Source: Gammaproteobacteria bacterium
GTDB lineage: Bacteria; Pseudomonadota; Gammaproteobacteria; UWMA-0217
Assembly: GCA_026981985.1 (NCBI GenBank)
Contig: JALSHZ010000135.1
Location: 1-40,323 of the forward strand
Direction: 5' to 3'
Length of the DNA stretch: 40,323 bases
Shown: positions 3,536 through 12,742 of the stretch, in pieces
Layout: the number at the start of each line of letters is the position of its first letter
Numbering within the stretch: position 1 is the stretch's first letter
Notes under the pieces: model-generated
Databases searched by the model: none
Seen by the model: only the letters and a program-made list of their open reading frames with translations
What the model was told of the DNA's origin: nothing
Program-made: the position numbers and the translations under genes

Positions 3536-3611
3536 TCCCCGATAGCTCAGTTGGTAGAGCAGTAGACTGTTAATCTATTGGTCCGTGGTTCGAGTCCACG
3601 TCGGGGAGCCA
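3536..3611 (+). tRNA. tRNA-Asn (anticodon GTT), CCA encoded
   Basis: The 76-nt sequence folds as a complete cloverleaf. A seven-pair acceptor stem joins TCCCCGA and TCGGGGA. The D arm contains AGCTCAGTTGGTAGAGC, the anticodon loop reads CTGTTAA with GTT as anticodon, and the T arm is GTGG-TTCGAGT-CCAC. The discriminator is G and the CCA end is encoded. Its last 23 nt form the left attachment site of the element that follows, so the 3' end present here is the copy brought in by, or shared with, the element. The gene remains intact and should be functional. Confidence 0.98.
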
Positions 3612-3614
3612 AAT
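3589..3614 (+). repeat. attL core (tRNA-Asn 3' end)
   Basis: The 26 nt from the T loop through the encoded CCA and three further bases recur at 12718-12742. The only difference is one missing G: the run of four Gs here is three Gs there. The direct repeat flanks the integrase-bearing element, which defines it as the attachment-site pair. Use of a tRNA T-arm and 3' end is normal for P4-type integrases. Confidence 0.9.
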
Positions 3615-3774: not shown

Positions 3775-5001
3775 ATGGCCCTTACCAACGTCTTTCTGAA
3801 GAACGCCACCCCCAAGGGCAAGCCCTACAAGGTTTTCGATGGTGAAGGGCTCTATATCGAGATTCGCCCGAATGGGGGCAAGTGGTGGCGGCTCAAGTAT
3901 CGATATGGGGGCAAGGAGAAGCGCATCTCCCTTGGCACCTACCCGGAGATCAGCCTGAAGCAAGCCCGATCAGAACGCGCCAAGGCCAAAGACCTGCTGG
4001 CGCGGGGCGTCGATCCCTCGGAGGACCGCAAGCTTTCCGAGAAGGTGGAATCCGGCGAGAACAGCTTTGAACGTGTCGCGCGGGAGTGGTTCAGCAAGTT
4101 CAGCCCCAAGTGGTCAGACGGCTATGCCAACAAACTGCTTACCCGGCTGGAAAAAGACCTGTTCCCCTGGATAGGGGCGACCGACATTGCCGACATCACA
4201 CCACCTGAACTCCTCAAGGTGTTGCGAAGGATAGAAGCGCGTGGCGCGCTGGAGAAGGCGCACCGGGCGCGGAACGACTGTAGCCGGATATTCCGCTATG
4301 CCATCGCCACCGGACGCGCTGAACGCGACGCCGCCGCCGATCTGAAAGGCGCTATTGCCCCAAAAGTCACACGGCACCACCCCACGATCACCGACCCCGT
4401 GGAAATCGGAAAGCTGATGCGCGCCATCGACAGCTTCGAGGGCTCTTTCGTCGTGCGCTGCGCCCTGCAACTGCTTCCCATCCTCTTTGTGCGCACCGGT
4501 GAGCTGCGGCATGCCGAATGGTCAGACTTCAATCTGAACGAACAACTGTGGTGCATCCCGCCCGAGAAGATGAAGATGCGGGAAAAACACATCGTCCCCC
4601 TGCCGCATCAAGCTGTGTCCATCCTCGAAGAACTGCATGCCCTTACCGGCTGTCATGACCTGGTGTTCCCCGGCGCACGCTCCACCTCACGCCCCATCAG
4701 TGAAAACACTATCAACGCCGCGCTACGCCGACTTGGCTACGAAAAAGGCGAAATGGTCGGCCACGGCTTCCGCAGCATGGCATCCACCCGACTGAACGAG
4801 TCAGGGCTGTGGCATGCAGACGTGATCGAGCGCCAGCTTGCCCATGGCGAGAGAAATAGCGTGCGGGCAAGTTACAACTACGCCCAGCACCTCGAAGAAC
4901 GCAAGCAGATGATGCAATGGTGGGCCGACTACCTGGACAAACTGAGAAGCGGCGCGGAGGTGGTACCTATCCGGCAAAAAAACACGAATACGCGGGGGTA
5001 A
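3775..5001 (+). CDS. int: P4-type tyrosine integrase
   Basis: This site-specific recombinase should insert and excise the element at tRNA-Asn. The 408-residue protein has an N-terminal DUF4102 arm-binding domain (about 1-90, with DGEGLYIEIRPNGGKWW and ISLGTYPEISL), a core-binding SAM-like domain (about 95-200) and a C-terminal catalytic domain. Catalytic residues are visible as R245 in RTGELRHAEW, H330 and R333 in HGFRSMAS, H357 in QLAHG, and the nucleophile Y367 in RASYNYA, followed by the family's EERKQMMQWWADYLD tail. Length is normal for the family. AAAGGAG precedes the ATG by about 11 bases. The gene lies directly beside attL and reads away from the tRNA. Confidence 0.96.
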   Translation: MALTNVFLKNATPKGKPYKVFDGEGLYIEIRPNGGKWWRLKYRYGGKEKRISLGTYPEISLKQARSERAKAKDLLARGVDPSEDRKLSEKVESGENSFERVAREWFSKFSPKWSDGYANKLLTRLEKDLFPWIGATDIADITPPELLKVLRRIEARGALEKAHRARNDCSRIFRYAIATGRAERDAAADLKGAIAPKVTRHHPTITDPVEIGKLMRAIDSFEGSFVVRCALQLLPILFVRTGELRHAEWSDFNLNEQLWCIPPEKMKMREKHIVPLPHQAVSILEELHALTGCHDLVFPGARSTSRPISENTINAALRRLGYEKGEMVGHGFRSMASTRLNESGLWHADVIERQLAHGERNSVRASYNYAQHLEERKQMMQWWADYLDKLRSGAEVVPIRQKNTNTRG

Positions 5002-5437: not shown

Positions 5438-5640
5438 TGAGCTTCCTGATCAATTGGCGCGATGGCACCCGTGAAGGGCGCTGTATCTCCATGCCAGACG
5501 AATATCACGGCCTGGTTACTGAGGTGGACGCCGACCGGATCGCGCAGCAGCTGCGCACCGAACAGGGTAAAGAGCCCCACCACCAGAGCATACGCGGCCG
5601 CCTGATTCGGCTTGCAAAACAGCGGAGGGTATCGAAATGA
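5437..5640 (+). CDS. small hypothetical protein
   Basis: The predicted product has 67 residues starting MSFLINWRDGTREGRC. It has an acidic middle and a basic C terminus (RGRLIRLAKQRRVSK). The ATG at 5437 overlaps the preceding stop codon by one base (TGATG). A GTG three bases earlier is also possible, but the overlap favours ATG. The final codons overlap the radC start by four bases. The basic tail could bind nucleic acid, but no domain is recognisable. Translational coupling on both sides supports it as a real gene. Confidence 0.65.
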   Translation: MSFLINWRDGTREGRCISMPDEYHGLVTEVDADRIAQQLRTEQGKEPHHQSIRGRLIRLAKQRRVSK

Positions 5641-6134
5641 GCGCGACACTTGGAAAGGTTCAGCTTGGCGCCAGGCAATACCGCTACGAACTGAGCGACG
5701 CCGACGCCCTGATCAGTGCGGCGCTGAACTGTATCCGGGAGAGCTGCCACCGAGAACCCTACAAGATGGTCAATCCGGGGATGACCGGGCGATTCTTCCA
5801 GCTGAAGCTTGCAGAGAAGAAGCAAGAGGTATTCGCCACTGCCTTTCTCGACAACCGTCATCGCCTGATCGAGTACCGCGAGCTGTTTTTTGGCACCATC
5901 GATGGTGCATCCGTTCACGCGCGGGAGGTGGTGCGCGTGGCACTCGAACTGAACGCAGGTGCGGTGATAATCGCCCACAATCACCCAAGCGGTGACCCTT
6001 CACCCAGCATGGCAGATGAGCGCATCACCCGTAGGCTGGCGGATGCACTGGAATTGGTAGATGTTCGTGTGCTGGATCACATCGTAGTTGGCGCAGAAGG
6101 TTTTGTATCGCTGGCCGAGCGCGGCATGCTGTAA
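5637..6134 (+). CDS. radC: RadC-family JAB/MPN domain protein
   Basis: This 165-residue protein keeps the JAMM metal-binding motif. H114 and H116 lie in AHNHPSGDPSPS, S124 and D127 follow at the expected spacing (HxH-x7-S-x2-D), and a glutamate is available in the upstream KKQEVF strand. The N-terminal helix-hairpin-helix region of chromosomal RadC is missing, as is usual for mobile-element copies of this length. The once-proposed repair role of RadC is not supported in E. coli, and the biochemical activity of element-borne copies is unsettled. The start overlaps the preceding stop by four bases (ATGA). It closes the early three-gene set and is followed immediately by the structured RNA candidate at 6142-6198. 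Confidence 0.9.
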   Translation: MSATLGKVQLGARQYRYELSDADALISAALNCIRESCHREPYKMVNPGMTGRFFQLKLAEKKQEVFATAFLDNRHRLIEYRELFFGTIDGASVHAREVVRVALELNAGAVIIAHNHPSGDPSPSMADERITRRLADALELVDVRVLDHIVVGAEGFVSLAERGML

Positions 6135-6141
6135 CCCGTTT

Positions 6142-6198
6142 GCCACACCTATCCCGACGGGGAGAAAAGCCGGTCCACCTTCACCGGCCTGGTGTGGC
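6142..6198 (+). ncRNA. three-way-junction RNA candidate, C4/CI-antisense-like
   Basis: An outer stem pairs GCCACACC (6142-6149) with GGTGTGGC (6191-6198). Inside it lie a short hairpin CCC-GAC-GGG (6153-6161), a purine-rich linker GAGAAAA, and a second hairpin pairing GCCGGT (6169-6174) with ACCGGC (6183-6188) around the loop CCACCTTC. Loop bases ACCTTC (6177-6182) are complementary to GAAGGT (6220-6225), the likely Shine-Dalgarno of the next gene. Loop bases CACCTT (6176-6181) are complementary to AAGGTG (7078-7083) before the AlpA gene. A compact antisense RNA upstream of its targets in a P4-like element recalls the C4/CI RNAs. The class assignment is inference; the folding is directly visible. 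Confidence 0.55.
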
Positions 6199-6230
6199 GT
6201 CTTATTGAGGGTTGGTGCAGAAGGTACGCT

Positions 6231-6953
6231 ATGCCCCGCAGACAAGAATTCAGTGAGTATGTCCCGGAACACATCAAGGCCATGATTATTGCGTGGAGGT
6301 GGGTGAAAGACGGCCAATGGCTGGCCCCCATCACCGGGCAAAAGAAAATTGCAAAAACGCTATGCCTCAGCACGACTGATGAAGCCCGGCAAGCATGGAC
6401 TTTCTTTTCTCCAAAACACTACCAGCTCACACTAAATGGACGTACCGTAGAGGATAAAACTGCCTCGACACAGGCTGCACAGCAGTCATTCGTCCGCTGT
6501 CTTTTTTTAGCAGATATTGCGCTGAATCGCTGGGATGAGCGTTCAATCATTACGCCCGCGCGGCTGGTACAGATTCAGGAAAAATCGGCCGAACTATCGG
6601 AACTGATTTCGGGTATCGAAGAGAAGATCCCACGCGAACCTAAGGGATGGCGACTCGTAGATGATCGCAGAGAAACGACTTATCGAAACGGCTTTGATAT
6701 TCAAGGGGGGTTAGCGCAATTGCACCGATGGGCACAGGACTATACCCCGCCAGATAACACCCTCGCAGACCCGGCATCTTCCAAGATAAAACGATTGGAC
6801 CGCCTGAGGTGGTTTGCCAGACAAATGCTGAATGGGAACCCAGCACAAAAAGCAACGTCATTGGCGGCGCTGACCAATCTCGTTTTTTCGGATGAGCCGG
6901 AATGTGCCAACGGTGGTATCTCCAAGGAGATCATCCGCAAGGGAAAGCTCTAA
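6231..6953 (+). CDS. hypothetical protein of the element, function unknown
   Basis: The product has 240 residues if translation starts at the ATG at 6231 (MPRRQEFSEYV), which has GAAGGT six bases upstream. A GTG at 6192 in the same frame is less likely because it sits inside the RNA-like structure. The protein is soluble and mainly helical by composition, with Trp-rich N-terminal segments (IAWRWVKDGQW, ARQAWTFFSP) and no membrane segment or recognisable catalytic motif. Base composition is visibly more AT-rich than neighbouring genes, hinting at a separate origin. It stands alone between radC and the AlpA-like regulator, a usual place for accessory cargo such as anti-defence, regulatory or exclusion genes. 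I do not recognise a family. Confidence 0.65.
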   Translation: MPRRQEFSEYVPEHIKAMIIAWRWVKDGQWLAPITGQKKIAKTLCLSTTDEARQAWTFFSPKHYQLTLNGRTVEDKTASTQAAQQSFVRCLFLADIALNRWDERSIITPARLVQIQEKSAELSELISGIEEKIPREPKGWRLVDDRRETTYRNGFDIQGGLAQLHRWAQDYTPPDNTLADPASSKIKRLDRLRWFARQMLNGNPAQKATSLAALTNLVFSDEPECANGGISKEIIRKGKL

Positions 6954-6961
6954 TGCCGGCA

Positions 6962-6986
6962 TGTACAAAAAAAGCGATTTTGTACA
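6962..6986. promoter_or_regulatory. perfect palindrome, candidate operator upstream of the AlpA-like gene
   Basis: TGTACAAAA at 6962-6970 and TTTTGTACA at 6978-6986 are perfect inverted repeats separated by seven bases. Half-site centres are 16 bp apart, close to one and a half helical turns. There is no T run after it, so it is not a typical terminator, although it lies nine bases after a stop codon. An operator for a dimeric regulator is the most natural reading. The cognate protein is unknown. Confidence 0.5.
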
Positions 6987-7024
6987 CGCGGGATAGTTCA
7001 GGGGAGATATAGGGTTCGCCCACA

Positions 7025-7085
7025 TGAGGCGGACGCAATAGAACCCAATCTAACCGCCTCACCTTCAACCAACTCGAAAGGTGAG
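7025..7085 (+). promoter_or_regulatory. mutually exclusive hairpins controlling the AlpA ribosome-binding site
   Basis: TGAGGCGG (7025-7032) can pair with CCGCCTCA (7054-7061). Alternatively CTCACCTT (7058-7065) can pair with AAGGTGAG (7078-7085). The two helices share bases 7058-7061, so only one can form in full. The second helix covers the Shine-Dalgarno GAAAGGTGAG of the gene starting at 7088. The arrangement is that of a translational switch: the upstream helix frees the ribosome-binding site and the downstream helix masks it. Confidence 0.5.
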
Positions 7086-7087
7086 TG

Positions 7088-7345
7088 ATGAAAAACTGTG
7101 AGCAAGGCGCACCCGCAGCGCCATCCATTCCAGCCCTGCCAGAAACGGGCTTTGTTCGACTTCCCCAAATCATCGGCGACAAGCGCCAGCCTGGTGTTTT
7201 CCCCATCAGCAAAACAACCTGGTGGCAAGGCATCAAGGACGGTATTTACCCGCAGCCGGTCAAGCTGTCGGCTCGCTGCACCGCATGGCGCGCCGAGGAT
7301 ATCCGCACGCTGATCGAGCGTACAGGACGGGATTCCAATGCCTGA
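7088..7345 (+). CDS. AlpA-family helix-turn-helix regulator / excisionase-like protein
   Basis: The 85-residue protein carries the AlpA/MerR-like winged helix signature. GFVRLPQIIGD is followed by FPISKTTWWQGIKDGIYPQPVKLSARCTAWRAEDIRTLIE, in which the recognition helix is SKTTWWQGI and the wing is YPQPVKLS. AlpA proteins act as small DNA-binding activators or directionality factors in P4-like elements and cryptic prophages. The ATG at 7088 is preferred over the GTG at 7085 because of its spacing from the AAAGGTGAG ribosome-binding site. That site can be masked by a leader hairpin, and a 25-bp palindrome lies about 100 bases upstream. The 3' end overlaps the nuclease gene by eight bases, so it heads the replication and recombination operon. 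Confidence 0.88.
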   Translation: MKNCEQGAPAAPSIPALPETGFVRLPQIIGDKRQPGVFPISKTTWWQGIKDGIYPQPVKLSARCTAWRAEDIRTLIERTGRDSNA

Positions 7346-12480: not shown

Positions 12481-12717
12481 GCAGCGAAGTGAAAAGATAC
12501 TGTTGGGACTCATTCGCAGTCGGAGTGCAACGGCCAGCCGGCCTTATCAGATCGGCAGCAATTGCCGGACAATGAATGCGCAAGTTCAAATTTTTTGAAG
12601 CGTTAACCGGCCCAAATCATTCAGGGGGTAGCACAATCAATCCGGGGGCAACTTTGGGGGCAGCCGAACAGAGAGAAAACACTATTTTCCTTTACTATCC
12701 GTTACCTATTAACTTGA
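12481..12717. other. right end of the element, non-coding, with arm-type repeats
   Basis: No credible gene lies between ssb and attR. The stretch holds GGGGGCAAC at 12644-12652, identical to the 9-mer at 3724-3732 and in the same orientation. Close variants are GGGGGCAG at 12656-12663 and GGGGGTAGC at 12624-12632. The shared flanking pattern CCGGGGGCAAC followed by a TTTGG-like run is seen at both ends. These are the likely right-hand arm sites for the integrase. Confidence 0.55.
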
Positions 12718-12742
12718 TTCGAGTCCACGTCGGGAGCCAAAT
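12718..12742 (+). repeat. attR core (displaced tRNA-Asn 3' end, one base lost)
   Basis: The 25 nt repeat the tRNA-Asn T arm through CCA and the following AAT (compare 3589-3614), with one G of the acceptor run deleted. There is no tRNA body upstream, so this is the displaced 3' end of the original gene. The deletion would break the acceptor stem, which shows that this copy is no longer under selection as tRNA and that the insertion is not very recent. Confidence 0.88.

Follow-up and report, generated by a model that had tools for sequence, protein, structure and literature searches.

Results

The window, by which we mean the whole stretch of 40,323 nucleotides analysed, contains an island of about 9.1 kb that lies in a tRNA-Asn gene and is bounded by att repeats (Table 1), the repeat at 12715-12742 being the sole other copy of the tRNA-Asn 3' end repeat in the genome. 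The island genes comprise a tyrosine integrase, radC, a gene here called X, an alpA-like gene and genes for DUF3799 PDDEXK, CHC2 zinc finger, DUF3987, RusA-like and SSB proteins, together with a weak RecT-like match. Because no capsid or terminase gene was recognised among those scanned, the island is best described as satellite-like, a candidate phage satellite. A perfect inverted repeat between X and alpA (TGTACAAAA-N7-TTTTGTACA, 6961-6985) is possibly an operator for alpA or for a later promoter.

The X protein of the window has no match in Pfam, PHROG, NCBIfam or PADLOC and no relative among the viral contigs or phages searched; with all these searches empty, assigning it a function by homology was dropped. 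The structure predicted from its single sequence had a pLDDT of 38 and was unusable.

Table 1. Coordinates of the RNA, its putative target sites and the surrounding features of the island
Feature	Position	Strand	Basis or remark
tRNA-Asn	3536-3611		
attL side, tRNA-Asn 3' end	3589-3612	+	repeat shared with 12715-12742
Tyrosine integrase	3775-5001	+	PF00589, PF22022, PF13356
radC-like gene	5637-6134	+	PF04002, E 2.9e-42; ends 7 nt 5' of the RNA
int-alpA RNA core (P1, P2, P3)	6142-6198	+	Rfam RF02996 match; computed fold
P1, outer stem	6142-6149/6191-6198	+	8 bp
P2, hairpin	6152-6163	+	4 bp
Unpaired GAAAA between P2 and P3	6164-6168	+	
P3, hairpin	6169-6188 (stem 6169-6174/6183-6188)	+	6 bp
P3 loop CCACCUUC, putative antisense segment	6175-6182	+	8 nt; family loop/site co-variation
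Tail site GAGGGU, putative first target	6207-6212	+	family z 16 (genomes), 29 (viral contigs)
Target hairpin, Shine-Dalgarno (SD) in 9-nt loop	6213-6231 (stem 6213-6217/6227-6231)	+	fold of 6142-6245; relatives
SD site GAAGGU of gene X, putative second target	6220-6225	+	family z 11 (genomes), 14.5 (viral contigs)
Gene X, presumed regulated gene	6231-6953	+	ORF, 240 aa
alpA-like gene, downstream in presumed operon	7088-7345	+	PF05930, E 4.6e-4, narrowly missing the curated cut-off
attR-like repeat of tRNA-Asn 3' end	12715-12742	+	93% over 28 bp

Structure and family of the RNA

The minimum-energy fold of 6142-6198 is a three-way junction of -29.5 kcal/mol (z -4.0), and none of 200 shuffled versions was equally stable. 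The stretch 6142-6211 matches the full Rfam model (1-71) of RF02996, the int-alpA RNA, with 67.7 bits (E 4e-12; cut-off 35.8 bits), and Rfam and the minimum-energy fold give the same structure independently. The three-way junction is thus real and 6142-6198 is an int-alpA RNA, a catalogued family without an explained function: Rfam types it as an sRNA, the model states no function, and its structure line leaves the loop and the tail unpaired. The location is also that of the family, with int at 3775-5001, the RNA starting at 6142 and alpA at 7088; an alpA-like gene lies 0.5-1.4 kb 3' of the RNA in about 60 of 127 int-alpA copies.

The coordinates and the three-way junction with an 8-bp outer stem, as read by a first-pass annotation made from the sequence, are therefore borne out, and the compensatory changes that it proposed to look for in relatives were found. 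Of the unpaired GAGAAAA that it placed between the hairpins, GAAAA is indeed unpaired, and the first two bases belong to P2. Its assignment to the C4 RNAs fell, in that the C4 covariance model (RF01695) gave no match within 5900-7200, even at E<=5, and RF02996 matched instead. A bulge in the outer stem that could act as a second antisense segment is likewise absent from P1.

A second int-alpA RNA occurs on another contig of the same genome (L002, G000:C8:6381-6452) at another integration site, downstream of the 3' end of a tmRNA. Its loop, AACACCUCAC, differs from that of the window, and its SD, GAGGTG, matches its own loop.

Pairing of the P3 loop with the tail and with the Shine-Dalgarno site

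The bases ACCUUC of the P3 loop (6177-6182) can pair with both the tail and the SD site downstream of the RNA. With the tail, a further putative target that the first-pass annotation had overlooked, they can form six contiguous pairs, one of them G.U, so that the Watson-Crick-only run of the window loop against its own tail is just 3. The SD site GAAGGT ends 5 nt 5' of the ATG of X, within CAGAAGGUA, which sits in the loop of the target hairpin. The earlier annotation located this SD, and that of alpA (AAGGTG, 7078-7083), correctly and proposed that the loop pairs with both; six nucleotides of the alpA SD can indeed pair with the window loop. A 6-nt match to an SD in a single sequence could be due to chance. 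As a separate observation, a CACCTT just upstream of the alpA SD could pair with AAGGTG as a local hairpin (7061-7083), which may bear on the match between the loop and alpA.

From whole genomes, 127 int-alpA copies were parsed and 109 non-redundant ones kept. The longest Watson-Crick run was measured between the loop, extended by one base on each side, and the downstream regions, namely the tail (0-18 nt past P1) and the SD zone (19-48 nt), as well as three control regions; the null was the same measure after swapping partners among copies. A second sample was drawn from viral contigs with patterns that covered only P1, P2 and J23 and never used the loop; it gave 180 parsed copies, of which 120 were non-redundant and new. 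Two pattern scans of genome contigs, the first of which yielded nothing and the second of which was too loose, were left out of the samples.

In the 109 genome copies, the mean run of the loop was 5.31 with the tail, where mismatched partners reached 3.79 (z 16.4), and 5.06 with the SD zone, where they reached 4.08 (z 11.2). The three control regions gave no signal (|z| <= 1.1); for the upstream region from -40 to -10, z was 0.2. The viral contigs gave z 28.8 for the tail and 14.5 for the SD, with control regions at most 2.2 in any subset. The signal was kept in loops without CCT, both in the genome copies (tail z 6.0, SD z 5.2) and in the viral contigs (n=58; tail z 20.0, SD z 10.5), which argues that the pairing is not a generic anti-SD match. 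When relatedness was controlled for by swapping partners solely inside clusters of near-identical scaffold, z was 11.7 for the tail, 7.6 for the SD and -0.1 for the control; and in a comparison of each copy's own site with that of its nearest relative carrying a different loop, the own site won 69:13 at the tail and 47:25 at the SD. Pairing of the P3 loop with the tail and with the SD of the next gene is thus well supported by co-variation across some 230 copies, and this family-level test shows the pairing proposed earlier with the SD of X, the gene for a protein of no recognised family, to be under selection and that with the alpA SD not to be. A scan from -300 to +1300 found loop co-variation solely in the first ~50 nt downstream.

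The tail co-varies with the loop more strongly than the SD does in both samples, and the match is kept at the tail alone in 55 of 229 copies and at the SD alone in 23. The two sites also differ in their surroundings. The stem flanking the SD copy co-varies both in the genomes (z 9.3) and in the viral contigs (z 11.9), and an SD held in a co-varying hairpin loop looks like a kissing target; the stem flanking the tail copy does not co-vary (z -0.3). The tail site starts 5-10 nt past the outer stem, and in most copies the SD-site complement ends 4-11 nt 5' of the start codon. Since the loop bases used for the tail and for the SD overlap by 91%, one RNA can hold only one site at a time, and the two pairings are mutually exclusive.

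Exchange of gene X

BLAST clustering divides the 88 X proteins into 65 groups. In the copies compared, a swap of X comes with joint changes of the loop and both sites, as seen where near-identical scaffolds stand before unrelated X genes. Relative to the loop of L081 (CCUUCA), that of L083 (CCUUUCA) has one base inserted, and the site pairs match (GAAGG and GAAAGG, respectively); in L048 and L079, CCUCA goes with GAGG, and in L044, CCUUCA goes with GAAGG. X differs between L081 and L083 and between L044 and the pair L048/L079, whose own X genes are homologues. Given these matched changes of loop, tail and SD before differing X genes, the RNA moves together with its sites, as one unit, while the gene behind it is exchanged.

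In one sub-group (L088, L095, L097, L098, L099, L105, L109 and L117), loops of the AUUCCUGG type accompany the SD CAGGA and related X genes, and one of the X proteins scanned resembles ParB-like partition proteins (phrog_1033).

Discussion

Our results suggest that the int-alpA RNA is the element's own off-switch. It is probably an antisense regulator of the C4/CI type, whose P3 loop recognises the SD of X as well as a second copy of it. The ACCUUC of the loop would pair with the SD presented in the target hairpin and with the copy in the tail; pairing with the SD should keep ribosomes off X, and an untranslated X may, by polarity, lower transcription of the alpA-recombination-primase operon, with the result that the integrated island would be kept silent; immunity would be the presumed biological role. 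Such polarity, as in P4 CI, is plausible given the operon order of X, alpA, recombination and primase genes. Of the C4/CI-like mechanism put forward in the first-pass annotation, an antisense loop facing the adjacent SD, with two sites on the transcript, holds across about 230 copies, while membership in RF01695 and the alpA target do not.

In most copies the gene upstream, usually an integrase, stops 3-30 nt short of the RNA, and no promoter-like consensus precedes the RNA, the base composition being flat from -60 to -10 and A/T-rich solely in the last 3 nt; a promoter of its own was rejected on this ground. After P1, T averages 44% in 8 nt and reaches at least 6 in just 12% of copies, which led us to reject a canonical intrinsic terminator, and the region, which is poor in G (7%), was taken to be an unpaired linker. 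In the absence of both a promoter consensus and a canonical U-tract, a free RNA would need processing, as reported for C4, and, if it exists, is probably released from a longer int/radC transcript.

A cis-acting leader switch is the main alternative, and the pairing evidence fits it equally well. The loop would pair in its own transcript either with the tail (X on) or with the SD (X off), the state being set by upstream translation, RNA processing or a factor, and no free sRNA would be required. The closeness of the upstream genes with no promoter consensus in between, the mutual exclusion of the two pairings and the excess of tail over SD co-variation would all suit such a switch, as would the tight spacing of the tail from P1, with a linker of 5-10 nt in 169 of 185 copies, which is about enough to reach the P3 loop; linker length, tested against P3 length as a sign of a cis pseudoknot, correlated weakly with it (r 0.22). 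However, presentation of the SD in a co-varying hairpin loop is typical of kissing antisense RNAs and unneeded in cis, and the closest mechanistic relatives, C4 and CI, act in trans as processed RNAs. For these two reasons we rank trans-acting antisense control above the cis switch, which we consider rather unlikely. Under control in trans the tail could be where the RNA docks first; under control in cis it could provide the second arm of a pseudoknot switch.

Direct control of both X and alpA by the same loop, as first annotated, is very improbable: AAGGUG at the alpA SD does pair with six loop nucleotides in the window, but permutation across the 48 loci with an alpA-like gene gives z -0.3 for the alpA SD, and hence its rejection as a direct target, whereas z is 10 for the SD of X at those loci, and no further co-varying site lies between -300 and +1300. 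That the structure acts at the DNA level, as a single-strand origin or recombination site, or is a plain attenuator with a generic anti-SD match, could be imagined for an element that integrates and replicates and whose family has CCUU in many loops, but is equally implausible, given that loops without CCU still fit their own SD and tail, that the complement has the spacing from the start codon expected of an SD and that the linker is without a canonical U-tract.

A broader reading, which we offer tentatively and hold to be somewhat less probable than not, is that the RNA, the tail and the SD hairpin form a portable cassette of exchangeable specificity, a two-state switch that would constitute a second antisense-immunity system beside C4/CI. 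One guide with a duplicated target, widespread in prophages and satellites before unrelated genes, would then set the dormancy of alpA-type elements by switching between two states, a pseudoknot of loop and tail and a kissing contact of loop and SD. Immunity groups were also sought through loop avoidance in co-resident copies, with no signal: such copies do not avoid cross-pairing (5.07 against 4.49 for other genomes), in a test that is confounded by lineage.

Comparison with known systems clarifies where int-alpA stands. C4 of phages P1 and P7 (RF01695) shares with it the outer stem around two hairpins, the position in a co-transcribed leader and a P3 loop that complements the next gene's SD. 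In eight clear C4 copies inspected by eye (L126, L127, L132, L134, L136, L143, L150 and L155), the P3-loop complement lies directly 5' of the next ATG in all eight, and a bulged GCCAAC with a downstream UUGGC-like sequence is seen in most. The outer stem of C4 is 17 bp long, and the bulge, which matches UUGGC, gives it two antisense segments; in int-alpA the stem is 8 bp long, and a single antisense loop goes with a duplicated target. C4 acts in trans as a processed RNA of ~77 nt and blocks an antirepressor operon. Its processing from a longer transcript is stated in the title of Citron and Schuster 1992 (cited in PMC8546580). The CI RNA of satellite P4 is processed as well; by pairing with seqA and seqC it makes transcription of the replication operon terminate prematurely (PMC4825925). 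P4 CI has one antisense segment and, on its own transcript, two sites complementary to it, and lies ahead of the replication operon of a satellite; in int-alpA, tail and SD likewise co-vary with the same loop bases. The CI sites, however, flank CI on both sides, whereas those of int-alpA are both downstream, its upstream region giving no signal.

The PICMI satellites resemble the window island in being small and in carrying int, alpA with a variable gene ahead of it, and a primase of the DUF3987 type, but they insert in fis and not in tRNA-Asn (PMC10803314). The gene that follows int overlaps it by a few bases in most PICMIs, which leaves no room for an int-alpA RNA, and the PICMI paper reports no RNA (PMC10803314). 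How the early regulon is switched on by the helper is a question that its authors raise (PMC10803314); a putative antisense RNA just before the early regulon of related elements would make the question of silencing and of waking by a helper directly testable.

The RNA family is known, and the predicted loop-tail, loop-SD and SD-hairpin pairings are, as far as we have checked, newly added. Outside the discovery paper (Weinberg et al. 2017, doi 10.1093/nar/gkx699), to which our search did not extend, no literature on int-alpA function was found, and an earlier mention of these pairings in that paper is possible. One paper names int-alpA, untested, among the RNAs predicted for two STEC genomes. 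The RNA is found in about one in ten of the genomes sampled (39 of 369 in the class, 52 of 398 in the phylum) and in hundreds of viral contigs. An orphan RNA family thereby gains a concrete candidate target, and hence a testable function, and the matched loop/SD pairs may serve as natural translation controllers whose specificity can be exchanged.

Some loci carry more than one such RNA. L103 has tandem int-alpA RNAs, two copies 692 bp apart, each before a similar X gene, and L119 has three within 2.5 kb, in two of which P1 is damaged and no SD match is present. A true C4 is also present on another contig of the genome studied here (L126, G000:C128:7760-7842, RF01695 with 75.1 bits), and its loop UCCUAGUC is complementary at 8 of 8 positions to GACUAGGA before the next ATG.
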